From Rhizophagus irregularis (Eukaryota > Glomeromycota > Glomeromycetes > Glomerales > Glomeraceae): a stretch of DNA of 64,000 nt. The position numbers were made by a program, and so were the translations under genes. Below are positions 9,961 to 61,781 of the stretch, piece after piece (the first letter of the stretch is position 1; the number at the start of each line of letters is the position of its first letter). A model generated the notes under the pieces. It was given only the letters and a program-made list of their open reading frames with translations. It did not search any database and was not told the origin of the DNA. The DNA is taken from positions 2,356,001-2,420,000 of the forward strand of contig NC_089434.1 in assembly GCF_026210795.1 (NCBI RefSeq), in the 5' to 3' direction.

Positions 9961-11429
9961 TGGGAAGGATACTGGTATCTCCTGGTATGAAATAAAAATT
10001 TTCTAAAAAAAAACCTATTTCATACTAACAGTTTTTATTAATTAGTTATTATAATAAAAAATGTTGTGAAATGTTTTTTATTATTTTATTTAACAAAAAC
10101 TATTAAAACAGTTTTTTTTCTTTAAATTTAAAGAAAATCATTTTGCAACAGTTTTTTATTATTGAGAGAAAACTGTTTTTAGTAATAGTTTTAATTAATA
10201 AAAAATGTTGAGAAATACTTTTTATTATATATTTTTTATTTTTATGATAAAAATGCTTACTAATAGTTTTTTTTTAAAATCTGCGTGAGTTTCAAACTAG
10301 TTTTAAAAGTTTTGGATTAGTTTCAAATGTTTTGGATTAGTTTAAAAGTTTTGGATTAATTTCAGAATAGTTTTAGGAATTTCAGAAACTGAAAAATAGT
10401 TTAATGCATCTTAAAGAATAACTTTTAGGAAAAAAATTTATAAATTCTTTGCATAAAGATTCATAATTTTTTTCATTTATTTCTTTTATACAGACAGCAT
10501 TTTTAGTTTAAAATTTAATTAAGTTTAAAAGCTGAAAAATATTTGAATACTACAAGGTTAAAGAACTGTATAGAAACATTAACCCTGTTCATTTCTGTTT
10601 TGTTCTGATCTGATTCGATTTTCACAAAATTTTTTTTGGCCAATCAAAAAACAGCGTAAATTGAGCAGAAAAATCCATATTATGATCTATTCCATTCTGT
10701 TCTAATTTTTTCTTTTTATAATTATGTCTAAAAAGAATATTTATTATTAATAATACAGAATTTAAATGATTCTTTTAACTCTTTTAATGATGATAAATTA
10801 AATAATAATAAAGATTTAATAAAAGAAGTACTTCATCAGGAAGTCACGGAAAAAATATTCATCACATGTACATTTTTGTAGATCATGTATATTATAATAT
10901 TCATTATTTTAAATGAATATGTAATATTTAACGTTAATGAACTTCATCAATGAGATTTTCATTATGATGTGCAACATTTAATAATGAAAATTCAATGTTT
11001 ATCAAATGGTATTGAGTGAATAAATTTATACATATTTGAAAATTTTATATCAGCCCCTATTTATTATTATATCATGTGATATAATTTTAAATAGACTGGC
11101 AACATGATTTTTTTTTAAACTTAAAGAAACTTTTTTTTTTATTCTTCTTATCCTTTTATTTTCCCTTTCCCGCCCTTTCTTTTCTCATGTTTCCCCTCTA
11201 TAAAATTCTTAACGAATCATTTAAATTATTTGACCTAAATTTGTAATGATCTACTATTTGATCCATATTTAACTTGGTCGAATATTAAACATAAATTTAA
11301 ACTTTTACTTTTTTTAGACTCCTTTATTCCCTTCCATTTCGTCCTTCACTTTCCCTTTCGTTCTCCCTTTCCTTTGGCTTCTACCTTTTTTCTCACACCT
11401 TTCTTTTGCTTCATTTTGTTGACAATACT

Positions 11430-13700
11430 GTAAGTTTTTTTTTGAAACTTACATATTTTTTTTTAATTTAAGAAACGAACTAACGTTTCTCTTCATATTT
11501 TTTTTTGTAAGATGCGTAGAAGGTAAAAAGTTTGAATTCATAATGCCTATAAAGTAATAAAATAAAATTAATAATTCTGATTGGTTACTAATTACTACGG
11601 TTTCATGTTGGTCATATGACTTACCGATATTCTGATTTACCGATCCTGATCAGATCAACTTTTTATATAAAAAAAAAAATTTTTTTCTTTTAACAATTTT
11701 TTTTTAAATAATAATTTATTCTTTATTATTAAAAGAATGGCGGAAATATAAGTTAAGGGTGGATACTTGTTTTTTTTAATTTGGGAACATTACTAATGTT
11801 CCCTTTCTTTTTTTTCTTTAAGAACATTCTTCTAGACATGAATTCCATCGAAATGAAGCAAGAACAGCCTTTCCTTGGAGTTATACAGTAAGTAGTTTAA
11901 TACAGTTTACCTTTCCTATAGCGAATTTTTATATAACGAATCACGTGACGCTTAGCCAATAAAATATGTTAATTTTCTCTCGCTATAACAAAGTAACCAA
12001 TCAAATTCTTCAAATTCTTCGTTAACTTGCTATAATGAATTTGAGGTGCAGAACAGCCAGTTTCTTCGCTATATCAAGAATAGACTGTATACGGTTATGA
12101 ATTGCGTTACAGAATAACACCAACGCATTTTTTTTATTTTTTAGTTTTTCGGCCTTTCCTTGGAGTTATACAATAAGTAGTGTAATGTATGGACAGTATG
12201 GTTATGAAATTGCGTTATGGAATAACACTGACACAATTTTGTTTTATTTTTTAGTTCTTCGGCCTTTTCTCAGTAGGTAGTGTAATGTATGAATAGTATG
12301 GTTATAAAATTGCGTTATGGAACCCCACTAACGCATTTTTTTTATTTTTCAGATTTCCAGCTAGTGGATGAATTAACCTTAACTCTCTCACGGGGATTTT
12401 TTGGATGTAAATTCAGATCACCTTCACCTTTCTTATAATCAGCAAGAATTGCTGCACATGGGTTGGTATAGTTTGGAAAGTGTGTGGTTGTATAATGGCA
12501 TTTAAAACAATACTAATGCCAATTTTCTTTTATTTTTTTAGGTTTCTGGTTATGGAATATGCGGTAGGTGTTGTTTGGTGAGTGTGTGGCTGTGTAATGG
12601 CATTATAAAACATCATTAACACCATCTTTCTCTTTTTTTAGGTAAAGCTCAAGCCCAGCTCGAGTCAGCTCTTGAATACAAAACTGGACTTTAGGTAAGA
12701 AATGGAAAAAAAGTGAATTTTTTGTTATTTTAAATATGAGAAACGAACTAACATTTCTTTTGTTATTTTTTTTTGTAGAATTCATACTAGAAAGACACCG
12801 GCTTAAATACGAAACCGGACTTTAAGGTAAAAAACTGGGAAAGGGATGAAGGAAGGGACTTTGCAAAGAAGAACTAAGATTCATAAGAATCTTAGTTTTA
12901 TTTATTTATTTTTTATTATTTTGGAACGGTTACTAATAACCGTTCTTTTCTTTTTAGATTTTAGGTGGACTTTCTATTTTCGGATAAAGTGGAACCAAGA
13001 TTCATAAATACGTACAAATCTTGGTTTTTTATTTTTATTTTTTATTATTATGAACAGTTACTAACCGTTCTTTTTCTTTTATTTTTTATAGGTACAGGTG
13101 GTCTTCCGAAGAACATAAAATAATAAACTGAGGTTCGTAAGTATTTTACTACAAACTTTAGATTTTTTTTAATATTACGAACAGTTTATTAACTGTTCTT
13201 TCTTTTTTTTTTTAGAGGATCGGGTGGATTTCTGAAAATCGGAAAAAGGAGAACTAAGGTTCGTAAGTATTATATTACGAACCTTAGATTTATTTTTTTA
13301 ATACTATGAACGGTTCTAACTGTTCTTTTTATTTTATTTTTTAGGTTTCGGGTGGGCCTCCAATTTTCAGATAAAGTGGAACCAAGATTCGTGAGTACGA
13401 ATCTTGGTTTGTTTGTTGTTTTTTTAATATTATAGAACGGTTACTAACTGTTCTTTTTCTTTTTTTTAGGTTTCGGATGAATTTCTGAAAAATGAAACAA
13501 GAAGATCAAGATTTGTAAGTATATACAAATCTTAACGGAATGGATTAGTAAGTTTCAAAGTTTTACTTCGAAACTTTTTTTAAAATTTTTTTTTAAATTA
13601 ATTTTTTTATTAATACTTTTTTTATCTTTTTATTGTTAGGTTGTACTTCTTGGACAAGTTTCGAAGAATAACTTCAAACCTTTTTTTGTAAGTCCTGGAG
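11430..13700 (+). repeat. Hairpin-intron tandem array A2
   Basis: About 15 units run in the plus direction. In the second half (12700-13520) each unit has a 3' splice-like TTTTTTAG, a spacer of about 40-46 nt (for example GTTTCGGGTGGGCCTCC at 13345), then a hairpin whose loop contains the 5' splice-like signal: AACCAAGATTCG/TGAGTA/CGAATCTTGGTT at 13380-13409. A second hairpin, GAACGGTTACTAAC...GTTC, puts ACTAAC 15-30 nt before the next TTTAG. The first half (12120-12600) uses a different spacer (CGGCCTTTCCTTGG). No continuous reading frame is visible. Confidence 0.7.
11901..12089. mobile_element. mariner-type MITE (189 bp)
   Basis: The ends TACAGTTTACC and the inverse of TAGACTGTA flank TATAGCGAA/TTCGCTATA inner arms. 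The terminal TA fits a Tc1/mariner TA duplication. A second copy at 46886-47070 is about 90% alike by eye. This copy lies in the intron-like part of an array A2 unit. Confidence 0.75.
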
Positions 13701-14042
13701 TATTTAGTTAATTAATATAAAGATTGTAAGTTTCGTTGCAAAGCCTACTGTCTTTTTTTTCATTTTCTTTAACAGTTGTTACTTTTAATAATAGAAAAAT
13801 TTAGCTAATATTATTGTTATAGTGTATTTAATAAAATAAATTCAATAATATTATAAATTTAATATGATGTTTATTATCTTTAAATAATGTACATCATTAA
13901 TGGACATTAAAATTAGGTGATGCACATCAAATATTGTGACATCGGTAGTACATTGCAGGGTCCGATGTTCAGCGTTTCTTTATGATATACATTAAGTGAC
14001 TGATGTACATTTGATGAACATTTTTTCTGTGACTTCCTGATG

Positions 14043-18440: not shown

Positions 18441-19653
18441 ACTTATGCAATCAATAATTCCAGAGTTTTTTATACATGCAATATATAAAAGACTATATAA
18501 TCTTATATACGAATTATTTATTGAATTATAATTATATTGAATATGATGATAGTGATTTTTAATCTTTATTATGATGTATTCACCAAAATCACTATTATTT
18601 CTTACTAATATCCATCATAATTTGTTGTGCAGTTCCTAAAAATCAAGATGTTTGTAATCGAGATAGCTCTGTATAATGGATATATTTAAAGTGCTAAGAA
18701 TTATATTAATTTAAAAAAAATATTTACCAAATTATAGTATACACTGGTCAAAAACTAGGCAAACATAGCTTAAGCTTGAATTTTATTAATTAATGCCGAA
18801 GTGACTTTAGAAAACACAGAGTAATCTATAAAGTACCGCAACAAGTGCAGAACTAATAGAAAACAAAGAACAAATAATCTTCCAAAATTACAAATAAAAA
18901 AGAAAAGCTAAGATTATAAAACCCCACCCTCTCTATATAAATAACTACGGCTACTCCCCCCAAATCTATTTCAAAATGGGTAAAGTCGACTATGCTATAC
19001 GTAACCCATCCAGCGTCATACCCACTCCTAGAATTGGTAAAGAACCTCTGAGCTACTATTAGCACCATCAAAAACGCATAAAATTCAATTTCCCCTATTT
19101 GGCTACATACTATGGATAACAAACCTATTTCATAAAGATCTCTGGGAACTTTTTAGTGTCATGCAATCCCCGAAGAAACACCCACCTCATTGCGAATGAT
19201 CCCAAACGGAGGACACCCACCTCATTGCAAACAATCCTTCGACCTACAAAAATTTACTATTTTTAATCAATATAAAATCGATATTGTTAAGTTTATCTTA
19301 ACGGTATCATTTCGATATCATTTCAATATCATTTCAATATTGATTTCATCAGGAAAGTTTTTGGGGTTTAGAACTGCAGAGATCTGTGAAATTAGCAGAT
19401 CTCCGCATTTTTTTGCACTTTTTTGACGCATTTCTGCGAAGTTCTGTGAATTTTGCAACTTTGCAGATAATTGAATATTTTTATCTATAAATCAGCAAAA
19501 TTCTGCAATTTTGCAGATTTCTGCAGATTTATTAGAAAAATTCTGCAGTAATCTTCGATTTTGCAGATTTTTGCTTTTATTTTTCATTGAAATATCAGCA
19601 ATTTTATCATTTTGATTAACTCTAATTAATTTAACACAATTGCCAGTTGGAGT

Positions 19654-20655
19654 AGAACCCCGAATAATACTAATATAACTCACAAATGATCGGCATGCAT
19701 TTACTACGATATTAACTCTACACAACTTTTTTTTCATAGTAACACTACGCAAATCCAAATCTTAGTTCAAAAAATTTTTGTTACTAATATAATTCGTTTC
19801 ACATTTTTTCTATTAGTAAGATATTAATAAAATCATGCGAAACTCACCATTTATTTGTTAAAATAGTGCGTTTCGCACTTTTTTATATTAAAATATTAAT
19901 AAAATGGTGCGAAACTCTCCATTTATTTGTTAAAATGGTGCGTTTCGCACTTTTTCTATTAAAATATTAATAAAATGGTGCGAAACTCTCCATTTTTTTG
20001 TTAAAATGGTGCGTTTCGCACTTTTTTATATTAAAATATTAATAAAATGGTGCGAAACTCTCCATTTTTTTTATTAAAATGGTGCGTTTCGCACTTTTTT
20101 ATATTAAAATATTAATAAAATGGTGCGAAACACTCCATTTTTTTTGTTAAAATAGTGCGTTTCGCACTTTTTCTATTAAAATATTAATAAAATGGTGCGA
20201 AACTCTCCATTTTTTTGTTAAAATGGTGCGTTTCACACTTTTTCTATTAAAATATTAATAAAATGGTGCGAAACTCTCCATTTTTTTGTTAAAATGGTGC
20301 GTTTCGCACTTTTTCTATTAAAATATTAATAAAATGGTGCGAAACTCTCCATTTTTTTTGTTAAAATGGTGCATTTCGCACTTTTTCTATTAAAATATTA
20401 ATAAAATGGTGCAAAACTCTCCATTTTTTGTTAAAATGGTGCGTTTGCACTTTTTTATATTAAAATATTAATTAAATGGTGCGAAACTTACCAATTATTT
20501 ATTAAAATGGTGCGTTTCAAACTTTTTTTTCTTAATAAAATGGTGCGAAATTCACCATTTTTTGTTAAAGTAGTGCATTTCGCACTTTTTTCCTATTAAA
20601 AAATATTAAAATAATGCGAAATGCATTACTTTTTGTTACTATATATCGGGGTCCT
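19654..20655. mobile_element. hAT-like element with a ~72-bp tandem hairpin array
   Basis: The ends are AGAACCCCGAATA and, inverse, AGGACCCCGATATA. A perfect 8-bp TSD GTTGGAGT lies at 19646-19653 and 20656-20663. The interior (19790-20630) is about 11 tandem units with GTGCGAAACTCTCCATTTTT then GTGCGTTTCGCAC; GTGCGAAA and TTTCGCAC pair to form hairpins. It has no coding capacity. The class is shared with 15800-17128. Confidence 0.85.
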
Positions 20656-20819
20656 GTTGGAGTATATTTGTCAGTTCGTATTATTACAGTAATCATTACC
20701 AATCGGATATAAACCAGAAATCGATAAAGTTGATCAGACTAGTCAATTATGATTTGTGTGCCGAATGATAATCTTTAGCTTTAAAAAAAGTTTTTTTAAA
20801 AAATTTATCTTTTCTAATA

Positions 20820-22960
20820 TTTTTTTTAGGTATCAGCGAGACTCTTCGCTTTGGATTGGTAAGTTTTGAAAGTTTTTCTTTCGAAACTGTTTTTTTAAAA
20901 GATTTTTTTAATATTTTTTTTATTTATTTTTTTAGGTATCAGTGAGACTCTTCACGGAAAGTTTCAAAAGTTTCATTCTTTAAACTTTCGAAACTTTATT
21001 TTTTAAAAAAAAATTAATATTTTTTTTATTTATTTTTTTTAGGTATCGGCGCCCTTCACATAAGTTTCAAAAAGTTTCATTCTTAAAACTTTTGAAACTT
21101 TCGTTTTTTAAAAAAAATTAATATTTTTTTTTATTTCTTTTTTTAGGTATCGTGAAACCCTTTCACGTAAGTTTCGAAAGTTTTTTGAAACTTCGTTTTT
21201 TTTAAAAAAAAATTAATATTTTTTTTTATTTCTTTTTTTTAGGTATCGGCGAAACCCTTTCATGGTAAGTTTCGAAAGTTTCATTCTTCAAACTTTCGAA
21301 ACTTTCATTTTTTAAAAAAAAATTAATATTTTTATTTATTTCTTTTTTTTAAGTATCGGCGAAGCCCTTTCACGTAAGTTTCGAAAGTTTCATTTTTTCG
21401 AAACTTCATTTTTTTAAAAAAAATTAATATTTTTTTTTTATTTTTTTTTTCTGTATCGGCGAAACCCTTAATGTAAGTTTTGAAAGTTTCGTTTTGAAAC
21501 TTCATTTTTTTTTAAAAAAATTTAATATTTTTTTTATTTTTTATTTTTTTTAGGTATCGGTGAGACCCTTCACTTTGCATCGGTAAGTTTCAAGAGTTTC
21601 ATTTTTTTGAAACTTTGATTTTTTTTTTAATTTTAATTTTTTTCTTTATTTGTAGGTATTGGTTGGGATCTTTGGAGTAGTAAGTTTTGAAAAATTTGTT
21701 AATTTTTTTCTTTATTTGTAGATATCGGTTGGCGGGGACATTTGGATGGTAAGTTTTGAAAAGAATCATATTCTTTTCAAAACTTCAAATTTTATTTTTT
21801 TTAACTTTATTTCTATATTTTGTAGGTATCGGTTGGGATTTTTGGATAGGTGAGTTTCGAAAAGTTTCGTTCCTTCTTTTCGAAACTTATTTTTTTTTCT
21901 TATCTTTATTTTTCTATTTTGTAGGTATCATCAGTTGGAAATTGGGATTTTTGAATAAGTGAGTTCGAAAAGTTTTGTTCGTTCTTTTCGAAACGTATTG
22001 GTTGAATAGGTAAGTTTTGAAAAGTATCATTACTTTTTAAAACTTTAATTTTTTTTTAATTTTCTTTCTTTATTTTGTAGGTATCGGTTGGCGGGAACAT
22101 TTGGATGGTAAGTTTTGAAAAGAATCATATTCTTTTCAAAACTTCAAATTTTATTTTTTTTAACTTTATTTCTATATTTTGTAGGTATCGGTTGGGATTT
22201 TTGGATAGGTGAGTTTTGAAAAGTTTCGTTCCTTCTTTTCGAAACTTATTTTTTTTTCTTATCTTTATTTTTCTATTTTGTAGGTATCATCAGTTGGAAA
22301 TTGGGATTTTTGAATAAGTGAGTTCGAAAAGTTTTGTTCGTTCTTTTCGAAACGTATTGGTTGAATAGGTAAGTTTTGAAAAGTATTATTACTTTTCAAA
22401 ACTTTAATTTTTTTTTTAATTTTCTTTCTTTATTTTGTAGGTATCGGTTGGAACCTTTGGAAATGAAACCTGTGGTAAGTTTTGAAAAGTTACATTACTT
22501 TTCAAAACTTCATTTTTTCTCAAAAAGTTTCATTACTTTTCGAAACTTTAATTTTTTTTTAATTTTTTCTCTTTATTTTGTAGGTATCGGTTGCAACCTT
22601 TGGAAACGAAACCTGTAGTAAGTTTCAAAAAGTTACATTAACTTTTCAAAACTTCAATTTTTTTTCAATTTTTTTTCTATATTTTGTTGGTATCGGTTGT
22701 GACCTTTAGATAGGTGAGTTTTGAAAAGTTTCATTTCTTTTTGAAACTTCAATTTTTTTTAATTTTTTTTCTAATGAAACTTTACTAAGGTATTCTCTTT
22801 TTGTAGGTCTATGACTTTCTGGGTGTTTCCTGAATGGAACTTCGAAGGTATTCTTCGAAGTTCTTTAAATTTTTATTTTTTTTAATAAAATTTTTTTTTT
22901 TAACAAAATTAATTTTTTCTCTTTTTTTTGTAGCTTCGCAACTTTTTAGATGATATCTGA
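20820..22960 (+). repeat. Hairpin-intron tandem array A3
   Basis: About 20 units of roughly 100 bp. The exon-like part is AG|GTATCGGCGAAACCCTTTCA-type (20-34 nt), drifting to GTATCGGTTGGGATYTTTGG after 21650. The donor GTAAGTTT opens a stem: at 21267-21281 AAGTTTCGAAAGTTT pairs with AAACTTTCGAAACTT at 21290-21304, both perfect. A T-rich tract and TTTAG or TGTAG acceptor follow after about 40-60 nt. A two-unit block at 21720-22030 is duplicated almost exactly at 22080-22375, showing recent expansion. No continuous reading frame spans the array. Confidence 0.75.
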
Positions 22961-24583
22961 AGAGAATTTTGAAGGTATTCTTCAAAGTTCTTTAAATTTT
23001 GGATGAATACTTTAGATATATGCGCTGTCAACGTCATTAAAATACATTTGAAAGATGATTATATTTTAATAAGTTGGCATATATTGGGTTTTTTTCTCAA
23101 TTTTTATATTGTATTTTATTAATTTCAGTTAGTTATATTTGAAATTCTTTAACTTTATAAATTTATTTAGCTATATTCAATTTTGCAATTTTATTTGACA
23201 AATTTATTAGTAAATAAAAATACATAATAAAAAATATAATATATAATGACTGTGACGATTAGTAAATAATTTATTTTTTTGTGAATTATTGCAGAACTTC
23301 GTTCTTGAATTTTTTCACAGAATTTTGTTCTTGAATTTCTTGCAGAACTTAGTTCTTGAAATTCTTTGCAGATTTAATTTTGAAGATTTTCGCAGAACTT
23401 TATTTTCTTGAAATTCTGCGCAGTTTTTGATGAATTTTTTTTTTCAAAGACTGCCGACAGGGTTGCAGATCTGCGCAAAAATGTCACCTGCAGATCTGCG
23501 TAGATCTGCACCCCAAAAAATTTCCCGATGTTAATATCGATATGATATCAAAATAAAGTATTATCACTTCGATATCATTTTGATATTAAATCGATATTGA
23601 AATGATATTGAAATGATAATTAAAATGATATCGAAATAACATCTTTAAATTAAACTTAAAGATGTTGTTTCGATATCATTTCTATTATCATTTCGATATC
23701 ATTTCAATATCGATTTAATATCAAAATGATATCGAAGTGATAATACTTTATTTTGATATCATATCGATATTAAATCAATATTGAAATGATATTGAAATGA
23801 TATCGAAATGATATTACTTGAAAACTTAAAGTTTCTGTAAAGTAAGATCTACCTAGATAAGTTAATCTAATGATAGCCCAACATGTGACCACCATGATCA
23901 GCATACTATAAAAACTGCGGTACCCAACCTGTCACCCCTTATCACCCGAGTGATCATTGATTTTGAAATTGTAACACCAAGCCACCATGACGATCAAATT
24001 TTCCAGTATCCCCCCATCCCCCAAAGAAAATAAGGTTACACTGAAAAAAGCGACCAAGAAAAACAAAAAGCAAAAAATAAAGACATAAACCTCAGGAAAA
24101 CTCGAAGTGCAATGAGAAAAACCTGAGTAAAAAACACCAAACATACATCTCAACTCCGTCTCCTTATTTTAGAAGACTAACTCCCCCGTTAACAACATCA
24201 ACTAGCAAGAAATACATTAGTCAGGAGCTCCTTCCAAGAAATACTGGTCCAGCCTGCGAACCACTTGGCCAGTTAGACTTTAAAGGCGTAAGAACCAAGA
24301 CGCACTACTTTTCAACCTTTCAGAAAGCCCAAAGGAACGTTTATATGGAACTGCCATCTTACAGTATTATTGGTAACTCCAAGACTCATGATAATAGTCC
24401 TAACTCAATATAAGCCGTAAGGAGTTCAGGCAAAACTAAAGACCTCGGTAATAACTTCATATAACGTTAAAAAGTCCTTTTACTATCACTCAAGGTAAAA
24501 AATCCTCATATTTTTCATCTATGTCTTCGGGAAAAAATGGGCAGAGCCCAACGGGAGAGAAAGTACGATGATCCTCACTACTG

Positions 24584-27500
24584 GTCAAAAACTAGGCAAA
24601 CGTGGCATAGTAGCCTTTATCTTTATTAAATTTATTTGAACTTTACAATTTACAAAAAATAAAAAGAAAAATATAAAAATAAAACTAACTAAAAACAAAG
24701 CTATATAGTCTCCTAAGAAAAAATAAAGTAAAAAATTAATCTAAAAAGAAAAATTGCATTACACTAAATTTCCCCAGATCTTCCCCCTTGAATATATTCC
24801 AACCAAAGTAGAAGCAACTATGCTAACAAAATGACGAATAGTGCGCCCACTATAAAAATCGACACTCCATCCTGCAAAAGCTGTTATTAAGTAGCATCAT
24901 TAGACGACCCATAAAACCTGAAAAGTGATTAAACCAAGGCAAACCATATTTTATCGAGTTCTTCAACCAATCGGTTTCGGAGTCACGTGAATCGGGTAGG
25001 GTTGAAGGTGGTAAAGATGAGTAAGGTATGTACGTTGACAATGGCAAATTAGATGGCTTCGAAGTAGTTTTCAACTTATAAGTAATGTTCATTGCGTTTT
25101 CCCATCTACTTTTCTCATAATAATGCGGATTTCAAATTCGTCTTCTGAATTTCTGAATAAAATTGTTATGGATAGCAGCGACAACCTTTATCGCAGAATT
25201 TCTTGGAATAGATAAATCAACAAATAAGTCGATAAAGAGCCTGGATAGACAACCTCGCACAAGGGCATAGGAGGACCAATTTGTAGATGAAAAGGACCAG
25301 CATAAAAGAGAAGTAAGTTTAGTAATAAACGGAGTTGGATCAATATCAGCCAATTTTCCAGCTTCTTGAAGTTTAGAAATCAAATAGCCTTAATAGGATT
25401 GGAGTTTTTGTTGCATAGGTAAGCGACGTCATTTGCACATAAAAAGGTGCATCAAATCTTCCATGCGGTCGATACAGGAACAGCAAGATAATTCGTCTAT
25501 GTATAAATCTGGTCGTGTTCTTTTAAGCTTTTCCAATGTGGGTAATTCGTCCAAGAAAAGTTTGAATTTCAAGGATCGGTGCCTCGAAGCATGTTTAAAA
25601 GTAAAGGAAGCGTTATGAGAGGGTTCGAATTTCAAAGTGAACCAAGTAAGATCCCAGTCAACAATGTAATCTATATTAGATAATAATAAAAAAGTAAAGT
25701 GAAAACGCAATTAATGTAACAAATCACGCATCAACTGCGTTTGGTAATATTGTTTAAGAAGGTGTCTTGGATTGGATTCGCAGACAACATCATTGTCATA
25801 AGTTAAGACAAAATCATGGGCAAAAGCAAGGTCCATTCTAGAAATCAAAATACTGGATGACGCAGTATGAGCAGTATTGGCCAAAGAGTCAGCAAAATCG
25901 TTTAAATAATTGCCAGAGTGAGCTTTAACTTTAACGGGAAAGACAGTCAAGTTCTTAGAGAAGATGTTTCATTCAATGATAGCCCAAAACTCAAAGTTTG
26001 TAGTTTTGTAATAAAGTCGGCTATTTGAATAAACAGAGGAAGAGCAACCTCGAAGGCCATCAATGGCAGTTTGCGAGTCAGTATAAATAGTAACTTCTGA
26101 GTCACGAGAAGATATGGTTAAAACTGCGTAAATAGCGGCAGCTTCAGCTCGAGAAAAAGAGGGATTATCCCAAATAATGCTATGCGCATAAGTAGCAATG
26201 GAGTTAGGAAAGCCAGCATCTAGTACAATTTGCATCTAAGACCAGCCCATGGAAACATCAGGAGTTCCTAAATTAATAAGAGACCTATTAGTGTAAAAGA
26301 TATAACGTGATTCTGCAGAAACAACTAATGGAGAGTTCACAAAAACAGCAGCAGCAGAAGATTCAACAGTGGTAGGAATAGCGGAAGCTGCAGTGGCATC
26401 TGTAGGAGAAGGATCAGAAACAAAATTTAATTTACTATAATAGAGACGGATACCATCTTTAATATCAGCCCAAGTAAAGGGGGGAGGTTACTTCGGAGGT
26501 GGTAGTTTTAATCCGCTCATTTGTAGTAGGCAAAATGAGCGAATGTTATAGAGAGACTGACAGTATATAAAGAGTTAAATCAGCATTCCGTTTTTTGGAA
26601 GGAGGAAGAGGAATGTGAGCAACACAACCAGGATGAGGAGAAAGTTTGATAAGATCGCCTGGCGAGGATTCGCAGTTGGGAGAAATTCAATGAACAATGG
26701 AACAAGTACCACGACCTGCTTGAACCAAAAGTTGTTTACCGAAGATGGGAGAGCCGAGATCATCCAACGTAACAATCCAATTTTTGGTAGTGGGAGGAGA
26801 GGAAAGACAAGGTTCCAACTCATAAAATGAAGAGTCATTCGTAGGCACGATGATAAAATCGTCGAGTAAACGATTATTAGAGTCAGGTATAGTGGTAGTT
26901 TGTTGGATATCTTTGTACCAATAAGGAATACGGCCAGGATAAGGTTGCTTGTCAAAACCTCTCCAAAATCCTGCGATAAATTTCAGCAAGATTTTACTAT
27001 ATATTTACTATAGTTTCGGCAGGGTTTCAACAGTTTCGGCAAATGGGGGTTTCGGTATTTCGGCAAAGTTTCGGCAGGATTTTTAATATGATTTAATATA
27101 GTTTCAGCATTTTCCGTATAGATTTCAGCAGTTATTAAGAAGGTTTCGGCAAGCAACCTTAGGCCAGGATCACGTCTTCCAACCAAGTTGTCATAATAAG
27201 CCTTCCAAGAGATTAAATGAGTCTCTTGAGGAGTAACGAGCTGAAATAAATAAAACAGCTTTCGTTTACGCAGGATAGGAAGATAGGCTTTAAAAGCTTT
27301 AGGCGTCATGCATTTAAATAAAGGAACACGTTCATCTAACAGGGATAAGTTCGGAAGCTTCGAAAGTTGAGTATGAAGCAAACGAAAAAGGGTAGAATTC
27401 AGGAGAGCAATAGTGCATGCGATATAATCCTTCTTAAAGGAAGAAAGAATAGACAATATAGACCAGTCCTTAATTAAGAGAAGAAAAATAGGAATCAAAA

Positions 27501-34837: not shown

Positions 34838-34944
34838 ATTGGCCTTAAGGCGCTTCGCATGGCTAGACAATATATTATTTTATTAAGACAATATTCGGGA
34901 TCTAGGTCAAGGACTGATCTGGAAAATTCGGCAGGTGATATAAA

Positions 34945-47070: not shown

Positions 47071-50000
47071 TATTGTAAACATCATGTACATATCTTATAC
47101 ATATCGGGTAGTCAAATATCAGTCACATATCATATATTTATCAAATACCCATATATTATAGTGAAATTCGATCAAAGCAAAGGATCATCATACTTTCTTC
47201 TTGATCGCCCATTTTTTCCCAAGAAGACATAAATGAAAAATATGAGGATTTTTTGCCTTGAGTGATAGTAAAAGGACTTTTCAACGTTATATGCCAATTG
47301 TTATGAGGTCGATTTGCCTATGAACTCCTTACGGCTTATATTCGTGTAGACCGTTATCACAGTTGGAGCTTACCAATAATACTGTAAGATAGCAGTTCTA
47401 TACGAATGTTCTCCTGGGATTTCTGAAAGGTTAAAAAGTAGTGCGTCTAGGTTCCTACGCCTTTAAAGTCTAACTGGCCAAGTGGTTCGCAGACTGGATC
47501 AGTATTTCTTGGAAGAAGCTTATCGACCAACGTACTTCTTGCTATTTGAAGTTGTTAACAAGATTTTTAGTCTTCTAAATAAGAATACGGAGTTAAGGTG
47601 TATGTTTGGTGTTTTTTACTCAGGTTTTTCTCATTGCACTTCGAGTTTTCCTGAGGTTTATGTCTTTATTTTTTGTTTTTTGTTTTTCTTGGTCGCTTTT
47701 TTCAGTATAACCTTATTTTCTTTGGGAGGTGGGGGATACTGGAAAATTTGATCATCATAGTATTAAAGGCGTTACTAATTTCAAAATCGATGATCACTCG
47801 GGCAATAAGAGTAGACAGGTTAGGTACCGCAGTTTTAGTAGATGCCGATCAAAGTAGTCACATGTTAGACTATTATTGGATTAACTTATCTAGGTTGATC
47901 TTAGGTTGAATGATTGTTCGTAATGAGGTGGGTGTCCTCCGTTTGGGATCGTTCGCAATGAGATAGATGTCCCTTCAGGATTACACGATACTAAAAAGTT
48001 TCTCATCGGCTGGACTGCATGACACTAAAAAGTTCTCAGAAGCCTTTGTGAAATAGGTTTATTATCTATAGTATGTAGTCAAATAGGGAAAATTGAATTT
48101 TATGCGTTTTTGATGGTGCTAATGGTAGCTCAGAGGTTCTTTACCGATTCTAGGAGTGGGTACGGCGCTGGATAAAGTTGCTTGCCAAAACTAGAAGGTT
48201 TCGGCGGGATGGCATATGTGAAACTGCCGAAACTAGTTTCACAAAATTGGTCTAAAATGTTGAAATGCCGTAACTGCTGAAATCTGCCGAAACTGTCTAA
48301 GCTGCCGTAATTATTTTGGCGTAGTACATCATATGATATACATATAGTTTCGGCAATATTATGAATTATGATTATTTTTGGCATGGATTTTTTTTTTGAC
48401 ATAATGCCGTATTCAGCCGTATTGAATTTATATAGACGTAATTGCCAAAATTTGCTGAATTTATCGAATTGTCAATGATTTACGCCAATCCGGCACAGAA
48501 AAGTTATATTATCAGACAGATTGCGTATTATAAATCATCTGATGATCTTTTTTTTCTTGTACCGGACAAAAATTATGAGGTAAAGAAAAGAGGAGGTCCA
48601 ACCAGAAAGTTTTTATTTAAAAAAAGTAATAGTTTATTTTTCGTTTTGTAGGGTTGCCGGACAAAAGCACGACTGGACTTTTTGAAGTAAGAAAGGACTG
48701 GAAAAGGATCCATTTTAATAAATTTATTTATTTTTTCTTTATTGTAAGGTTACCGGACGAAAAACATGACCGGACTTTTGAAAATGAGGTAAGGAAGGGT
48801 TGAGGGAAAGGTTTTTCGTTATTTTTTATTTTAATAAATTTAACTAATTTATTTTTTTCTTTTTTGTAGTGTTGCTGGACGAAAAACATGACTGGACTTT
48901 GGAATTTAGGTAAAAGAGGGGGCTGAGGAAAGGTTTTTCGTTGTTTTTTTATTTAATAAATTTAACTTATTTATTTTTTTCTTTTTTGTAGTGTTTTCGG
49001 ATGAAAAACATGACCGGACTTTGGGATTTAGGTAAAGAAGGGGCTGAGAAAGGTTTTTCGTTGTTTTTTTATTTAATAAATTTCTATTTTATTTTTCTTT
49101 TTGTAGTATTGCCGGACGAAAAATATGTACAGTGTAAACGGTCGAATATCAAGCACGAGAAGATGATAAAATTCAATCACCAAATGTAATTGCCAAATAT
49201 TAAGAACGAACAAATTAATTATGAATTGGCGTAGATGGATAAATAATTAGCCGAAAAGGATAAACATTTAAGAAGAGCAATGATCTACATGATGTAATAT
49301 TTATCGGATGATTAACAAAGAACCAATAGAATAATTAGAGTCGATCAATTGCGGCTTAGCAATCTTTAACAATAAGAACAATTAGAAAGAATAATTATAA
49401 GCCACAAAAGGTAGATCATATAAAATGGAGGGATAGCGGACTAAAGGAACACGCATAACGAAAGTACATACATTCATTCTTATGTTTTATTATTTCTTGC
49501 GGACATTTATCTTTCTTTCTTGAAAAATCTTCATTTAATATTTCTTTTATTTTAAAGATTTCTAAAAAATTCATTCTTAAATTTTATTGTTTTGAAGATA
49601 AACTTCTGATTACAAAATTTACAATATATCTTAAATTTTACTTCCATAAATAATAATATAAAAAGATAGTGTAAAGATGGAACATAAAAAATAGCATATT
49701 AAAAGATAGCGTATTTAAAATATAGATAGCATATTAGAAAGATAGTTCAAAGATAATATGTAAAAAGAACATAAAAGATAGTATATAGATAGAATAGAAA
49801 GTAGCATAAGATTTGTATAAATAGAGAGCGGAATTCAAAGTAATTCCACAGTTCTCATCCACAGAACTCAATAAAAATATAAGTTTTATTTAATTATTTG
49901 TTAGTAAAGTTTAATATTAATTAAAGGTAATAGGTTCGCCCTAAACTTTAATTAATGTTCGCTTAATTAATTTTAATTGAATAAAATGGAAATTTAAGAT

Positions 50001-50123
50001 GAATTAAATATACACTTTTGGAAAGTAATAATTCGTAGCGAGAGCTATTGAAGTTTGAAAGTAAAAGTAAAAAGTGGATATAATTTGGGGAAAATTTAGA
50101 GAAGTTAACTTTTATTTTATATT

Positions 50124-52724
50124 CATCAGTAATGTTTTAGGAGTCAGGATCCACGTGAAATCCTTATTTTCTGTAAATAGTAAAGATTCGCGTGGATCCT
50201 TCCCCACCTCAACGGATCCTTGGAATTAAAAAAGTTTAAAGAATCCCTAAGGATAGGAAAGAATCCTTAGGGATATTTATTTAATTTTTATTAATAGATT
50301 ATTTATTGATTTTTATTAAAATCTATTTATTAATTTATATATTTAATGTGTATTTATTTATCTTTAATATTATTGTATATATTATGTATTTCTCCAGTTA
50401 ATAAAAATAAAACAATAATTTAAATATAAAATACAAAAACAACTAATAAATAAAGTTAAAAAAAAATAATTATGTAAGTTTCACAATGAAACTTATTGCT
50501 TTTCCTTAATTCTTCAGTTGATATCCAGACAACCTGAAAAAAATTAAACATTATTTAACGCTTTTATTAAAAAGGAAGCAATTGAAGTTTCGCAATGAAA
50601 CTTACCTATTATTAAATTATTTTCTCTCTAATCGATACCCCAGATCATGGTATAATGTCAATAGCGTCATTTGATTTTGAAGCAGGAGGGTTATCGATCC
50701 TAATTGCTTGCATGGCTTTTACAATATCTGGGTGATTTCCAATTGAAAAAGTATCAATCTGTTCGTGGATTCACTAATAGCTGATCTATAGCAAGCGATA
50801 GTATTCCCCTATTGAAACCTACTCGTCGAAAAAAAAGAAAAAGATTGAAACGTTAATAAATGTTTTATTAAAATAAATAATTTAAAGAAGCCTTCACTTA
50901 CCAAGTTCCCACACGTCTAAAGAAATCAAAAGAAATGGCCATCTAAAAAGAAAAAAATCAAACATTAGTAGATATTTTGCTACAGTAAAATAAAAATTTA
51001 AATAATTCCCCACCAGTTTCTAACGCGTTAATGACCCATTCCATCTAAAGAAAAGAAAAAATTGAATTTTTTTGTTTTCAATACACTTGTTGAAACAACT
51101 TATAGTGCGTGTCTAATACTGAAATTAATCTGAAAGATGTCATCTTCGATATCTTTTTTCCTTTGCCATTATTCTGTAAGTATTTTACGTCCAGAGATAT
51201 TTAAAAAAGAAACGCCTAAAAAAAATGAAAATGAGCAGTTAGTAATGCTCGTTAATATAAAAAAATCTGAAATAACTTCTTTTTTTGTTACTTACCGGTA
51301 TCCAAGTTGAAAAAAACACCTAAAAAAGAAAAAAAATGAACATTTAGTATTCGTCAAAATAAAAAAAAAATTGAAAAAAATTTTTTATGAAACTTACTGG
51401 TATCCCACATCAAAAAATTCCTAAAAAAGAGAAAAAACAAACAATTAGTAATGTTCGTTAAAATAAACAAAAAGAAAAAAATAATTTTTTTTACATACCG
51501 GTATTCCGTGAAGAAGCTCAAACCCACCTAAAAAAAGAAAACGAACAGTTGGTGATGTTCGTTAAAATAAATAAAAAGAAAAAAAATAATTTTTTTTTCT
51601 TACTTGCCAGTATTTCACGTCCAAAAAAGTCTCAAAATCACCTAAAAAAGAAAAACGAACAGTTAGTAATGTTCGTTAATATAAAAAAAAATGAAATTTT
51701 TTTTGTTTACTTGTAAAAGTCCTATTCGAATATCCAAACCCAAAAAAGAAAAAATAGAATAGTTAATAATATTCATTAATATGAAAAAATGAATAATATT
51801 TTTTTACTTGCCGAAATCCATGTTCAAGTACCTGAAAAAAAGGATGTCTAAAAAAAGGAAATAAAATGAAACATTAGTTAAGGCAACATATCATTAAAAT
51901 AAATAAAAAATTAAAGTGTAAGCTTACCGAAATGCCACATGCAAAGGAAATCTGAAAGAACCTAAAAAGAAAAGACCCGACCGTCTAAAAAAAGAAAAAT
52001 GAAAATGAAACATTAGTTAATGTTTCGTTAAAATAAAAAAAATTGTAAAAAAAAACTTGCAGCAAGAAAATCTGAAAGAATCGTCTAAAAAAAAGAAACA
52101 ACTGTTAGAAACCATTCATTAAAAGAAAGGAAAAAAAAGTTTAAAACTTACCAGAATATCACTTTCAAAGTAATCCAAAAGAACCGTCTAGAAAAAAAAA
52201 ACAAAAAAATGAATTAGAACCTGCTCATTAAAAGAAATAATTAAATATATAAAAAAAAACCTTACCAAAATCTGACTGCTGACTAAAAAAATAGTGGAAC
52301 ATTATTTAATGTTTCATTATGGATTTTGTAGAGAGAGGGGAAAGAATAGGGTAAAGAAATAGAACGAGAAAGGAAAAAGGTGAGAGAGGGAATAAAGACG
52401 AAAGTTTTGTAAAAAAAAAATTCCATATCAAGATATCAGATGATCGATCATTAAACATTAAGATTATAACACGTGATACACGTAATTTTTTAATTTTAAA
52501 ATAAAAATAAAATTTTTTAAAGATTTAGATATAAGGAATATATAAGGATTTTTTATATGGAATCTTTAAAGAATCTTTAAGGATCTGTAAACTTATAGAT
52601 TCCTTAAGGGTATTTTACAAATCAGTATGGATTTTTAAAGAATCCATAAAATTACAGATCCTTAAGGATTCTAAAGCAATTTATGGAATCTTTAAGGATC
52701 CATATTCCAAAAAATTTACTGATG
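50124..52724. mobile_element. CATCAGT element III (2601 bp), carrying array A5
   Basis: The left end is CATCAGTAATGTTTTAGGAG and the inverse right end CATCAGTAAATTTTTTGGAA, both leading to GGATCC within 30 bp. Subterminal regions repeat AAGGATC(C/T)TTAA words. TT flanks both ends. The uninterrupted R2 copy at 42681-44060 confirms the borders to within a few bases. The terminal motif ATCAG(G/T)AAATTTTTTGG is shared with elements II and IV. Confidence 0.7.
50480..52310 (-). repeat. Hairpin-intron tandem array A5
   Basis: About 17 units on the minus strand. A pyrimidine-rich leader (52390-52320 on the minus strand) precedes them. Typical units (51230-51720) read GAACATTACTAACTGTTCG, with ACTAAC in the loop of a hairpin, then TTTCTTTTTTTAG, then a spacer of about 25-35 nt (for example GTG-TTTCAACTTGGATACCG), then GTAAG at the base of a T-rich stem. 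Spacers vary more than in A3 and A6. No continuous frame was seen. Confidence 0.7.
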
Positions 52725-53840
52725 TTGCTTGATGTTTTATATTACTAACGCTATTTATGTTGTGAACCAAAAATGTTGCTATATGTTGTTGCAGGTTGTT
52801 CGTTGATTATGTTGTTATTAATTATGCTGTTGATTATTTGTTTGTTCGTTTATTTGTTCGTTTGTTCGATTATTCGTTCGTTCGACCATGAGAAAGCCCG
52901 TTCGATGTGGCAACTCTGTAAATTGATGACAGAGGGAATTGGGGGATCTCAACGGATTTATAAATTAAGGTAAAGGAGGACTGGTGAAAGTTTTTCGTTA
53001 ATTTTTCATAATTTATGAAAAACATGACCAGACTCTTAAAATTAAGGTGAGGGGGGTCGGAAAAGGTGTTTTCATCATTTTTTTTAATAATTTAATTGAT
53101 TTTTTTTTCTTTTTGTAGGATTGTCAGATGAAAAAATATAACCGGACTTTTGTAATCAAGGTAAAGTACCGGGAGAAGTGTTTCGTTATTTTTTTTTTTT
53201 TGATAAATTTAATTAATTTATTTTTTTTTATGTAGAATTCCCAGAAAAAAAATCACAACTGTTGCATTTGTTAGAATTTTTTCAATAATAATATTATTAT
53301 TAGAATATTACAACGTTGTTTATTTACATGTAAATTTATTAGAGACTGAAATTAAAAATAAAATATTTGGAATGCTGTAATTATGCCGAAATTCATATAA
53401 AATATTATTATTTATTATGCCAAAACTACGGATAAACTTGTTATAAAGGTTTCACAAATTTTGGCAGTTTCACAAGTTTCGGCAGTTTCGCAGTTTCGCA
53501 GTTTCACAGTTACAGCACTATATGTAGAGTTTCTCCTTTCGGCATTAGGCCAAATAGGTTTCGGCAGGCAACCTTAGTGCTGGATGGGTTACGTATAGCA
53601 TAGTCGACTTTACCTATTTTGAAATAGATTTGGGGGGAGTAGTTGTAGTTATTTATATAGAGAGGGTGGGGTTTATAATCTTAGCTTTTCTTTTTATTTG
53701 TAATTTCGGAAGATTATTTGTTCTTTGTTTTTTATTAGTTCTGCACTTGTTGCGGTACTTTCTAGATCACTCTGTATTCTTTAAAGTCACTTCGGCATTA
53801 ATTAATAAAATTCAAGCTCAAGCTATGTTTGTCTATAGTA

Positions 53841-56640: not shown

Positions 56641-56699
56641 AGGGTATGATCCTGATAATAATAATAGATTTATTTGTATTCTTTATTTTTAAAAAATAT

Positions 56700-57145
56700 T
56701 AATATAACAACAAACATCTTACCAATATATCCATTAAGTCTCTCATATGAAAAAAGCCAAAAACTATATATGGAACCATAGTCATAAGCTCACAGCAACA
56801 GTCAGAAATATGAAGTGCAAGGTATATGTTGCTTGTTATAAATTCTGGCCCATATGTTCTTTCTATAAGGTGAGCCATGTCCTTCAATCTCTCTTGCGCT
56901 TTTCTCAGATCATCTTCTGTAATAAATCTTGCTACTAAAAGATTCAGTTACATGCTTGAACAAAATGTCCTAAGATTTTTCTATTATTATTATCTAACAT
57001 ATCCCATAGTATAGGCGTGGAATAAATCATAATAAAGGTTTTCCATTGATCAGCAGTTAAATTTGAAAAACCTTCATTTCCAATTGCAATCTTTGGGGGA
57101 TTCTACCGATATCAGAAAATAATTCAATATAATCCATTCTCTTTT
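56700..57145 (-). pseudogene. CACTA-type transposase fragment (DUF4218-like)
   Basis: On the minus strand, ELFSDIGRIPPKI, GNEGFSNLTADQWKTFIMIY and STPILWDML, then RFITEDDLRKAQERLKDMAH, then EFITSNIYLALHISDC, then DYGSIYSFWLFSYERLNGYI. This order is characteristic of the DUF4218 region found with Tnp2-type CACTA transposases. Two frameshifts (near 56930 and 56790) and stops break it. Its upstream part is cut off exactly where CATCAGG element IV begins (57146). Confidence 0.7.
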
Positions 57146-57959
57146 ATCAGGAAATTTTTTAAGATGCAGAACTGCGGAGATCTGTAAAATTAGCAGATCT
57201 CCGCATTTTTTTTGTGAATTTATGCGGAAGTCTGTGATTTTGCAGATTTCTGCTTTTTATTTTTTACAAAGTTATGCAATAATCTGCAATTTTGCAAGTT
57301 TCCGATTTTTTATGTATTAATTTCTGCGGTAATCTGCGATTTTGCAGATTTCTGCTTTTTTTTATGTGAAATTTATGCGAAAGTCTGCAATTTTGCAGAT
57401 TTTTGCTTTTTTTTCATTAAAATATCAGTTCGATCTGCAATCTCATCATTGATTTAATATTTAAACTTTAATTAACTCTAACTTGATTTAATACCTAAAT
57501 GATTTTTTCTACAATACTCTTTAAAAAAAAAAAACTTTACAAGACTTTAAAAAAATAATTTTTTCTACAACACTTATTACTAAAGAAAAAAACTTTGTGA
57601 AATAATTTTTCTACAACACTTTTTAGGAAATAATCTGTTAAAAATTTTAAAGAAAAAATATTTCTATTATTTTTTAAGCTTCGAAACTTATCAGAGAAAT
57701 TTTTTTTTTAAAAAAAAAAATTTATTTGCAAGGTTCGGAGTCTTTAAGGCAAATTTGTCCAACATTTGGCACATAATCTGCAACATGCAGGAAAATTAGA
57801 ACCAAAAAAAGGAGTCGTATTCCTTTTTTTCTTTGAAAAAAAAAATTTTTTTTTAATGAACGTCAGTTAACGTTCAGTTTGTAAGTCAAGAACATAATAG
57901 AGTCTATTGTCAATTTAATTTGGAGGTATATCACCTCTGAAACTTTAATTATTTTAGAG

Positions 57960-58795
57960 AAAAAAAAAATTTTTTATATTATATAGGTTCCAGATGGAAT
58001 CTATCGATGATTTTAGTTGGAATTCGGAGGTATGCTTACCTCCGAAATTTAATTTATTTTTTTAAAAAAAATTTTTTTTTATATTATATAGGTTCGGATA
58101 GAACCTATCAGATATTGGAATTCAGAGGTATGCTTACCTCGAATCTTAATTAATTTTTTTTTAAAAAAAATAATTTTTTTTATATTATATAGGTTCTGGA
58201 TAGAACCTATCAAAGATATTGGAATTCAGAGGTATGCTTACCTCCGAATCTTAATTTATTTTTTTAAAAAAAAATAATTTTTTTTATATTATATAAGTTC
58301 CGGATGGAACCTATCAAAGATATTGGAATTCGGAGGTATGCTTACCTCTGAATCTTAATTAATTTTTTTTTAAAAAAAATAATTTTTTTTATATTATATA
58401 GGTTCCAGATGGAACATCAAAGATATTGGAATTCGGAGGTATGCTTACTCTGAATCTTAATTAATTTTTTTTAAAAAAATTTTTTTAATTTTTTATTATA
58501 TAGGTTCCAGATGGAACCTATCGAAGATATTGGAATTCGGAGGTATGCTTACTCTCCTGAATCTTAATTTATTTAAAAAAAAAATAATAATTTTTTATTT
58601 ATATTATATAGGTTCTGGATGGAACCTATCGATGATTTTGAAATTCGGAGGTATACTAACTTCTGAATCTTTAATTTATTTTTTAAAAAAAAAATAATTT
58701 TTATTATATTATATAGGTTCCGGATGGAACCTATTGATGATTTTTGGAATTCGGAGGTATGCTTACCTCCGAATCTTAATTTATTTTAAAAAAAT
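57960..58795 (+). repeat. Hairpin-intron tandem array A6a (GGTTCCGGATGGAACC units)
   Basis: Eight units of about 105 bp: TATTATATAG|GTTCCGGATGGAACCTATC (GGTTCC pairs with GGAACC), a linker GAT(A/T)TTGGAATTCGGAG, then GTATGCTTACCTCCGAAT, where ATTCGGAGGTA pairs with TACCTCCGAAT around TGCT so that the donor-like GTATGC sits in the hairpin. A TTTTTAAAAAAAA block and a T/A-rich stretch precede the next ATATAG. Confidence 0.75.
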
Positions 58796-61380
58796 AATTT
58801 TTTATTTAACAAACGCCACTAATGTTCGTTTTTCATATTTTTGCTCCCAAGCTAAAGTACGGCTCCGGACATTTTTTTTTAATTAAGTTATCTAACGAAC
58901 GTTGCTAACGTTCGATTATAGATCCTGGACACTGAAGAACGGTTCCAGACATTTATTTTGAAGGTAAAACCTTTACCTTCAAAATTTTTTTTTATATTTT
59001 TGTTTAACAAACGTCGCTAACGTTCGTTTTTTATTTTTTTTAGGTCCTGAACGCCAAAGTACGGCTTCGGACATTTATTTCAAAGGTAAAATTTACCTCC
59101 AAATTTTTTTTATTTTATTTATACCTACGAACGTTAATTTACGTTCGTTTTTACATTTTATAGGTCCTGGACGCCAAAGTACGGCTCCGGACGTTAATTT
59201 CGAAGGTAAAACCTTTACCTTCAATTTTTTTTTTATTATTATTTAACGAACGTTAATTAATGTTCGTTTTTATATTTTATAGGTCCTGGACGCCAAAACC
59301 AGCTCCGGACTTTACTTTGAAGGTAAAACCTTCGAAAAAAAAAAATTTTTTTTTGTTAACTTTATTGACGAACGTTAACTAACGTTTCGTCTTATTTTTT
59401 TTAGATAAAAGAAGCCGAAACTGAGTTTCGGGTTCCTATATCAAAGGTAAAACAAACCTTCGAATTTTTTTTTCTTTTTATTTAAACGAACGTTCACTAA
59501 CGTTCATTATTCTTTTTTTTTAGGTAAAGGAAGCCGAAAGAACTTCCATATCAAAGGTAAAATCTTCGATTTTTTTTTTATTATTTTATTTAATGAACGT
59601 TACTAATTCTAACGTTCATTTTTTACTTCAGTATTACTGCACCGTACGAAACCGAAAGGCAGGTTCCGGTCTCCTATTTTGAAGGTAAGGCTTCAAAATT
59701 TCATTTTACTTTTTTTCTTTTATTTTAGCGAAAAGTTTACTAACGTTTCATTTTTCTTTTTGTAGGACTACGGCATTCCGGACGCTTTGTGGGCTCCATT
59801 TCGAAGGTATATTATCCTTTATATTCTTCGAAAGTGTTTATTTTTATTAGTTTTTTTTACAAACGTTAACTAACGTTCGTTTTCATTTTTGTAGGTCCAA
59901 GACGCCGAAAGTACATGTCTCGGATTTAATTTCGAAGGTAAATAACTTCGAAAAAAAAGGAGTCTCTTTTTTTTTTAACGAACGTTCACTAACGTTCGTT
60001 TTTCTCTTTCTTTGTACGCTGAAGGACTTTAATTTCGAAGGTAAACTTTGATTTTATTTTTATTTTTTATTTAATTTTTTTTTGTTTATTTTAAGGAAGC
60101 GTTATTAACATTTCAATTTTCTTTTTTTAGGTTTCTGGCTCTCCTGAATTCTCCTGGACGGAATTTCGAAGGTATTTCTTCGAAATTCTTTTATTTTTTT
60201 TATCTTATTGTTGTAAAAGAACGTTTTTAACATTCTTTATTTTTTTTTTTTAGATTTTCGGCTCTCTGGTTTCAGCCTGGACGGAATTTTCAACATGGTT
60301 AGTTTCGTAACGAACTTTTCGTTACGAAACTATTTTTTTTTTATTTTATTTAAACGAAACGTTACTAACGTTTCGATTTCTTTTTCTTTTGTAGGTTATC
60401 CGGTAGCCACCTGGATTGGATGGGATTTCGAAGGTGAAACTTCGAAATTATTGTATTTTCATTTTTTATTTGAACGAAACGTAAACTAACGTTTCGATAT
60501 TATTCTTTCGTAGGTTGGCGGCTTCCTGTAACCCTTCTGAAAAGAATTTCGAAGGTATACTTCGAAATTCTTTTACTTTTTTTATTATTTGTGACGAAAC
60601 GTTACTAATTTTTCAGTTTTCTTTTTTTTTGTAGTTTGACGGCTTCCTGTGAACCTTTCCGATTACAACATTCAAAAAGAATCCACTCTTCCATCTTTCT
60701 CCGTCTTCGTGACGATATGCAAATTTTTGTTAAAAAACTATTACTTTGGAAGTTGAGTCTTCTGGAATGAATTTTGAAGGTAAACTTTGAAATTCTTTTA
60801 CTTTTTTTGTTTTTTTATTTGAACGAAACGTTTACTAACGTTTCAATTTTCCCTTTTTACGGCTGTCCAGATGCCTTCTGGATGAAATTTCGAAGGTAAA
60901 ACTTCGAAAAAATAATTTTTTTTGTTTTATTTTAACAAATGTTTATTGACGTTTGTTTTTATTTTTGTAGATCCAGGATGCTGCCGGACTTTCATATCGA
61001 AGGTAAAACCTTCAAAAATTATTTTTTATTAATTAATTTATTGACGAACGTTAACTAACGTTCGTACATCTTTTTTTTTAGGTAAAGGAAGCCGAAAGAC
61101 AAGTTCCGGACTCCCATATCAAAGGTAAAACCTTCCAAAATTATTTTTTATTAATTTATTTGACGAACGTTAGTAACGTTCGTATTTCTTTTATTTTAGG
61201 TCCTGGGTTCCCATTTAAAGAACTTCAAAAGTAAATACTTTGAAGTTTCTTTTTTTTTTACTTCTTTAACAATCGTTATATTAATGATCATTTTTTCTTC
61301 TATGTTTAGGTCCCAGACTGCTGGGTTAGATATTTCAAAGCTGCTTGCTTCGAAATTTTTTTTCGTTTGTAGGTATCCGT
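58796..61380 (+). repeat. Hairpin-intron tandem array A6b (ACGAACGTTACTAACGTTCG units)
   Basis: About 22 units with the full signal set. Example: exon-like 59164-59205 (42 nt, starts GTCCTGGACGCCAAAGTACG), intron-like 59206-59282 (77 nt) with GGTAAAACC in a TTGAAGGTAAA/TTTACCTTCAA hairpin, and acceptor TATTTTATAG. In neighbouring units the upstream hairpin holds ACTAAC (near 59376) about 23 nt before TTTTTTTAG at 59404. Several spacers are 42 nt and open in one frame with a loose pattern (V/I)(L/K)(D/E/N)(A/T)(K/E). Later units switch to CGAAACGTTACTAACGTTTCG hairpins and GGCTTCCTGTRACCCTTC spacers. Confidence 0.8.
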
Positions 61381-61781
61381 TGTTCGTTGGAATCGAACCA
61401 ACTGGAACAATATCCAAACTATTAACAACATGTAAATGTGCAGTAAAGAGATGATGAATAGCAAGTATCTAGTAATAGATTTCAATTGTATTTGTAAACT
61501 TGTTAATATATAATAAAAAAGTAATTTTGATTATATAAATAAATTAGTAATTAATGCAATAAATTAATTTGTATTATTGTGACGCAGATTTTTACTGAAA
61601 AAAATTGCTGAGGTATTTCGAAGGTTTTTATTTAAAAATCTGCGCAGAACTTTGTTATTTATAAAATTTGCGCAGTTTTTTATTGGATTTTTCCTCTAAT
61701 GTTTTGCGCCAGGGTATAAAATCTGCGCAGATATAATTTCTGAAAATCTGCGCAGATCTGCTCCCCAAAAAATTTCCCGAT

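Follow-up and report, generated by a model that had tools for sequence, protein, structure and literature searches.

The array-bearing elements found in a 64,000-nucleotide stretch of contig NC_089434.1 of Rhizophagus irregularis (the window) most likely contain real, mostly non-coding micro-intron arrays, which would make the RNA of the element intron-dense. These arrays have mobile carriers, a splice grammar restricted to one strand, tandem growth and decay after insertion. The explanation favoured here, to which a probability of roughly 45% is assigned, is that they are the cargo of non-autonomous DNA transposons and consist of tandem GT-AG micro-introns alternating with micro-exons; many of the introns would be removed by splicing, to the benefit of the carrier.

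Carrier transposons and their termini

Four of the carriers, E1 to E4, are PlavakaB-type non-autonomous elements. The terminal motif CATC[AG]G[GT]AA has nine matches on the two strands of the window, as opposed to none in the reversed sequence, and seven of the nine are element ends, which bears out the shared motif and inverted ends ascribed to the four elements in the initial annotation (with TATC at the left end of E4). E1 (10834..14042, plus strand; ends CATCAGGAAGTCAC...) and E3 (50124..52724, minus strand) have CATCAG at both ends, E2 (19347..23530, plus strand) combines a left CATCAG with a right CATCGG end, and E4 (57145..61782, plus strand) extends from TATCAGG at 57145 to a CATCGG end at 61782. 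According to an excerpted account, PlavakaB transposons have CATCA..TGATG termini and target duplications of 2–3 bp (PMC12730594), and the prevalence of Plavaka elements in strain DAOM197198 was previously reported (excerpt of PMC11075540). E1–E4 exhibit the 5'-CATCA..TGATG-3' termini, with TATCAG at the left of E4, and the corresponding 2-bp flanks are equal (tt/tt) in E1, E2 and E3 and unequal in E4. Among the fetched E4-type loci, at least one end is present in 20 of 20 and both ends in nine if two substitutions are allowed, and eight of these nine two-ended loci have equal 2-bp flanks. In the R. irregularis DAOM197198 assembly, which was the genome searched (146.7 Mb, 32 contigs), the end pattern of E1 has 89 matches and that of E3 has 20, each compared to 0 in the control. 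The four elements had been described as one family; they instead represent several related PlavakaB-type families, as the inner ends of E1 and E3 differ from those of the other elements.

The Plavaka transposase itself is found in a partner of E2 and E4, the 6.5-kb element L029, which has the same two ends and contains the Plavaka domain PF18759 (E 4.7e-10); pieces of L029 are 86–98% identical in L030. At E<1e-8, E2 matches L029 at its left (85% over 198 bp) and right ends (77% over 368 bp), and so does E4 (left 86% over 92 bp; right 75% over 158 bp and 70% over 145 bp). For E2, E4 and the array locus L021, likeness to L029 at this threshold is confined to the end regions, and they are therefore non-autonomous relatives of it. 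None of the 123 Plavaka-domain matches in the genome falls in the window, in line with the earlier statement that the elements lack a transposase, and pieces of L029 matched neither the window nor any of the array loci L009–L028, with the exception of an ORF2-like piece in L018. L029 also carries a second gene at 4400–6200, on the strand opposite to the transposase, with ordinary introns and without a Pfam match of note. Among candidates for an autonomous E1-type element, L032, in which 6.7 kb separate the E1 ends, was set aside: its ORFs, on the minus strand at 1554–3825, seem to belong to another element inserted into this E1-type copy. No long gene was found in L033. E1–E4 thus resemble PlavakaB transposons in their CATCA..TGATG ends, in the 2-bp duplications of E1–E3 and, for E2 and E4, in ends common to the Plavaka-domain element L029, whereas they have no transposase and their cargo is a micro-intron array, a feature absent from the excerpted account of PlavakaB elements (PMC12730594).

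A fifth array, at 48580..49106 on the plus strand and with exons of about 40 nt, was recognized by splice-signal chains and by unit comparison; the initial annotation had identified the four array-bearing elements correctly and overlooked this one. It lies in the X element (48176..53576, plus strand; ends TAAGGTTGC...), which is interrupted by E3 and other sequence, so that the Plavaka-type E3 is nested within an element of another group. We take X to be hAT-like, a superfamily name assigned provisionally from its inverted ends and 8-bp target duplication. The flanks of the window copy, GCGCTGGA and GTGCTGGA, differ by one C/T change, and three of three fetched copies of the X array have exact 8-bp flanks. 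The X end has 1304 matches in the genome and one in the control. Ten places with X ends were fetched; in eight of them the end is paired with another at a distance of about 240 bp, and six of these eight have equal 8-bp flanks. Most of them are thus probably MITEs, and two short members of the X-end family in the window (26939–27161 and 37656–37879, about 223 bp) are probably MITEs as well. X thus shares 8-bp flanks, inverted ends and MITE relatives of about 240 bp with hAT-like elements and, unlike them, carries an internal micro-intron array. KDZ-type elements likewise have 8-bp duplications (excerpt of PMC12730594), and the flanks are therefore compatible with either superfamily.

The window contains further tandem arrays at 34938–35365 and 45108–45586 (units of about 52 bp each), 1474–1774 (about 57 bp), 40398–40733 (58–60 bp) and, inside E2 and upstream of its intron array, 19795–20621 (about 71 bp). 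Such arrays are common in the window, and some of them have palindromic units. The search for known RNAs yielded no tRNA, and none of 40 Rfam matches with E up to 1 reached the gathering score.

Splice signals and hairpins

Chains of splice signals place the arrays of the PlavakaB-type elements at 11993..13526 in E1 (plus strand, limits approximate), 20674..22933 in E2 (plus strand, overlain by the published models OCT59_026256 and RIR_jg32990.t1) and 50819..52265 in E3 (minus strand), while the array of E4 occupies 57994..61454 (plus strand) as modelled by OCT59_026262, whose 21 introns lie at 58030–61309. Under an untrained rule, in which donor, branch, pyrimidine tract and acceptor have to follow in order, the longest intron chains comprise 4 introns in E1, 8 in E2, 5 in E3, 8 in E4 and 3 in X, as opposed to 0–1 on the opposite strands, at most 2–3 in 200 dinucleotide shuffles of each array and at most 2 in the window outside the arrays. 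A looser rule gives chains of 7, 9, 11 and 9 in E1 to E4. The signal order of spliceosomal introns is thus present, and on one strand only. The proposal that the elements carry chains of intron-like modules, alike in architecture and different in unit sequence between elements, consequently stands beyond what antisense strands and shuffles yield by chance. A trained intron finder, which favours the E4b type, recognized 25 consecutive introns in L021, 23 in L023 and 20 each in L024 and L028, mostly 65–90 nt long. The predicted number of 15–30 introns per element therefore applies to E4 and related copies, with L021 reaching 25 in a row, and fails for E1 and E3 as far as these were tested. Introns from the trained finder also underlie the exon and intron GC and stop counts, the folding of 43 introns, the donor arm swap and the exon-order permutation reported below. 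E4-type exons have a GC content of 45%, compared to 21% in the introns.

Hairpins had been assigned to the donor and the branch site of the modules. This describes the average E4-type intron and not every module, as the position depends on the type. Across 43 distinct E4-type introns, the mean fold z is −2.3 in the donor region (84% below −1), −2.0 in the branch region (63%) and −0.5 in the acceptor region (33%). Stem arms pair better with their own than with swapped partners, both at the branch (4.15 vs. 3.41; 131 segments, sd 0.12, maximum of 300 swaps 3.76) and at the donor (6.78 vs. 6.11; 51 segments, sd 0.21, maximum of 200 swaps 6.59). Strong stems form at the donors of E2 (z −2.0 to −5.2, four units) and E4a (z −1.9 to −4.4, three units); the donors of E4b and E1 are mixed, with such a stem in one of three units each. 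In E3 (z −1.2 to 1.0, four units) and X the donors fold at shuffle level, which rules out the donor hairpin as a universal feature. Single branch hairpins reach z −4.3 in E1, −3.7 in E3 and −3.3 in E4b. The hairpin is hence located at the donor in E2, E4a and many E4b units and at the branch in E1, E3 and E4b.

Spread, decay and descent of the arrays

Array matches in the genome number at least 212 for the E4 type, 154 for E1, 121 for E2, 70 for E3 and 124 for X. When the 91 zero-mismatch ends out of 321 are considered, 23 of the 40 listed array loci of the E4 type are followed downstream, within 7 kb and in the correct orientation, by an exact right end, whereas shifted positions give a mean of 0.07 and a maximum of 2 in 2000 trials. 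The genome-wide tie between these ends and the arrays, the absence of which had been named as a refuting outcome, was therefore found. Six of the 17 loci without an exact end were fetched, and all six have at least one end at two substitutions. Among the matches listed, an end lies within 6 kb in 26 of 40 E1-type array loci, 14 of 24 inverted pairs of E1-type ends enclose an array, and an end is nearby in 14 of 36 E3-type loci; a complete E3-type pair is absent among the 20 ends in the genome.

Comparison of four E4 copies, in which 10 introns were recognized and the exon class hence includes some intron sequence, showed that 32 of 90 intron and 23 of 69 exon CpG positions vary, compared to 26 of 743 (introns) and 30 of 759 (exons) at non-CpG positions. 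Transitions account for 102 of the 115 variable sites. Methylated repeats show such a pattern; within the four copies, given the intron sequence in the exon class, no stronger constraint is visible on exons than on introns. The units themselves were compared in 28 pairs of hand-chosen units, 12 of which fall below a shuffle cut of 0.02. The X unit scores 32 against that of E4b (maximum of 500 shuffles 25) and, less clearly, 28 against that of E1 (shuffle fraction 0.002), and the units E2c and E4c score 42 (shuffle maximum 32). Part of the common build thus probably reflects common descent of the unit (E4b and X, E2c and E4c). Given that the X unit resembles that of E4b and its host element is unrelated, it is probable that the intron module moved from one group of transposons to another.

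Both observations bear on the suggestion that the common architecture is a sign of selection: shared unit ancestry probably explains part of the build without selection, which weakens the suggestion, and the copies decay at CpG sites without visible constraint. Both also speak for a rival explanation that we consider possible, in which the arrays are functionless relics of a captured exon-intron piece multiplied by slippage, their splice sites being true but useless and their hairpins deriving from palindrome-rich repeats of the genome. The tandem arrays with palindromic units that are common in the window fit this explanation, as does the lack of a preserved open exon order in 14 of 15 chains. 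It accounts less readily for the recurrence of one build among five types of unit and in two groups of transposons, for long runs which persist with every site recognizable, and for stem arms which co-vary with their own partner.

Coding capacity and published gene models

Exons of the E4 type leave remainders of 0, 2 and 1 on division by three in 71, 47 and 30 of 148 cases. When exon order was permuted in 15 E4-type chains, the fraction of permutations with a longest open frame at least as long as that observed was 0.28–0.94 in 14 of them, and a borderline 0.04 in L024. X exons are 40 nt long in 13 of 14 cases, and all 14 have a stop in one and the same frame. Since the 40-nt length rotates the frame and each exon has a stop in one frame, X exons cannot encode a single protein. 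The reading frame is accordingly not kept in X and in 14 of the 15 E4-type chains. Stops are nevertheless depleted relative to shuffles: 42 distinct exons, which share ends and are hence not independent, have 60 stops in three frames, compared to 75.6 after shuffling (sd 5.0), where the lowest of 300 shuffles also has 60. Open frames average 2.05 per exon, compared to 1.63 (sd 0.09, highest 1.88). Introns show no stop depletion, and when E2-type exons are taken by themselves the effect is not clear.

Published proteins match the array exons in 21 cases (P0121–P0141), all from R. irregularis, contributed by several annotation efforts and termed “uncharacterized,” “hypothetical” or left unnamed; they are probably transposon arrays annotated as genes. 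Five of the 21 map letter for letter, in each case by the mapping with the fewest introns: OCT59_026262 to E4 (21 introns), OCT59_026256 and RIR_jg32990.t1 to E2 (13 and 16), P0126 to L025 (9) and P0136 to L031 (14). The remaining 16 do not map in full to the window or the fetched loci. The junctions of OCT59_026262 agree with earlier predictions at both ends of 11 of the 21 introns, at 13 donors and at 14 acceptors. Gene models of DAOM197198 were built with Illumina and Nanopore RNA (excerpt of PMC10234402). The published junctions are consistent with splicing of the arrays, and they may also be gene-finder output.

These models imply that the arrays are protein-coding micro-exon genes carried by transposons, which we regard as unlikely. 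In its favour, five proteins map letter for letter with 9–21 introns, stops are depleted and open frames enriched as described, and no more than 2.8% of exon permutations leave the frame of the E2 model P0136 intact, an argument for coding in E2, P0136 having been chosen by a gene finder for its open frame. E2 may thus keep a reading frame and is the best case for a protein. The exon-length remainders, the exon orders, which in 14 of 15 chains are not more open than permuted ones, the X exons and model P0133, which skips several exons detected by the intron finder, all argue against it. We read the array exons as mostly non-coding now, and perhaps as descended from coding ancestors. That the arrays hold no introns at all, but hairpin-rich repeats or a transposase-binding region merely resembling splice sites, is very improbable: palindromic arms and AT-rich spacers are directly visible, yet donor, branch, pyrimidine tract and acceptor are ordered on one strand and missing in antisense and shuffled sequence, and separate annotation efforts have placed junctions in the arrays.

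Proposed mechanism

Among the roles suggested for the arrays, a spliced and mostly non-coding RNA fits best. A use as a source of new introns gains no support from the element ends, which lack a GT or AG edge. Under the favoured explanation of a partly spliced, beneficial cargo, the array would take the place of the second gene of the autonomous relative and share its 3' region, its transcription would run toward the right end, and splicing would take out many of the introns. The likeliest benefit would be that, compared to intron-free transposon RNA, an intron-dense, gene-like RNA is more readily exported or less subject to RNAi or chromatin silencing. For such a role of intron density in escape from silencing, which would rest on analogy, HUSH is described as recognizing long intron-free RNA (excerpt of PMC7618375), and in Cryptococcus stalled spliceosomes can trigger siRNA (PMC6643885, in an excerpt citing Dumesic 2013). 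Arrays lengthen through tandem duplication of a single exon-intron unit, which has probably been passed among transposon families.

A bolder and rather doubtful version treats the unit as a mobile splicing module, that is, a self-amplifying exon-intron cassette, often with a hairpin at the donor or branch site, which would pass between PlavakaB-type (2-bp) and hAT-like (8-bp) groups. The carrier RNA would then mimic an intron-rich host gene and escape silencing, and exons open in several frames would tolerate many splice combinations.

Relation to known systems and significance

Introners also link mobile DNA to introns in eukaryotes, including fungi (excerpt of PMC9860276). However, an introner provides one intron per insertion, whereas the elements described here provide many and their own ends are not splice sites; with edges of CATC..GATG and no GT..AG, E1–E4 are not introners. 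The SP7-like effectors come from the same fungus and have repeat units in intron-bearing genes, but they are defined by a signal peptide, a conserved intron ahead of the first repeat and repeats with a conserved island (excerpt of PMC11333574). The arrays have an intron between nearly all repeats and lie inside transposon ends, and an SP7-like effector gene is rejected on this position of the introns. Schistosome micro-exon genes share the chains of tiny exons; they are coding with introns of up to 5 kb (excerpt of PMC10526429), in contrast to the mostly frameless arrays with tandem introns of mostly 65–90 nt. No report of transposon-borne intron arrays was found among the titles and abstract beginnings retrieved from open-licence PMC papers.

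For R. irregularis, the gene catalogues probably include transposon arrays annotated as genes and call for corresponding caution. If spliced, the arrays would to our knowledge be among the densest known intron runs (in L021, 25 within about 3 kb), and they would lie in selfish DNA that is mostly non-coding. Such arrays would then offer a model for the duplication of exon-intron units and their movement between elements, as well as a natural setting in which to test whether transposons are protected from silencing by introns.
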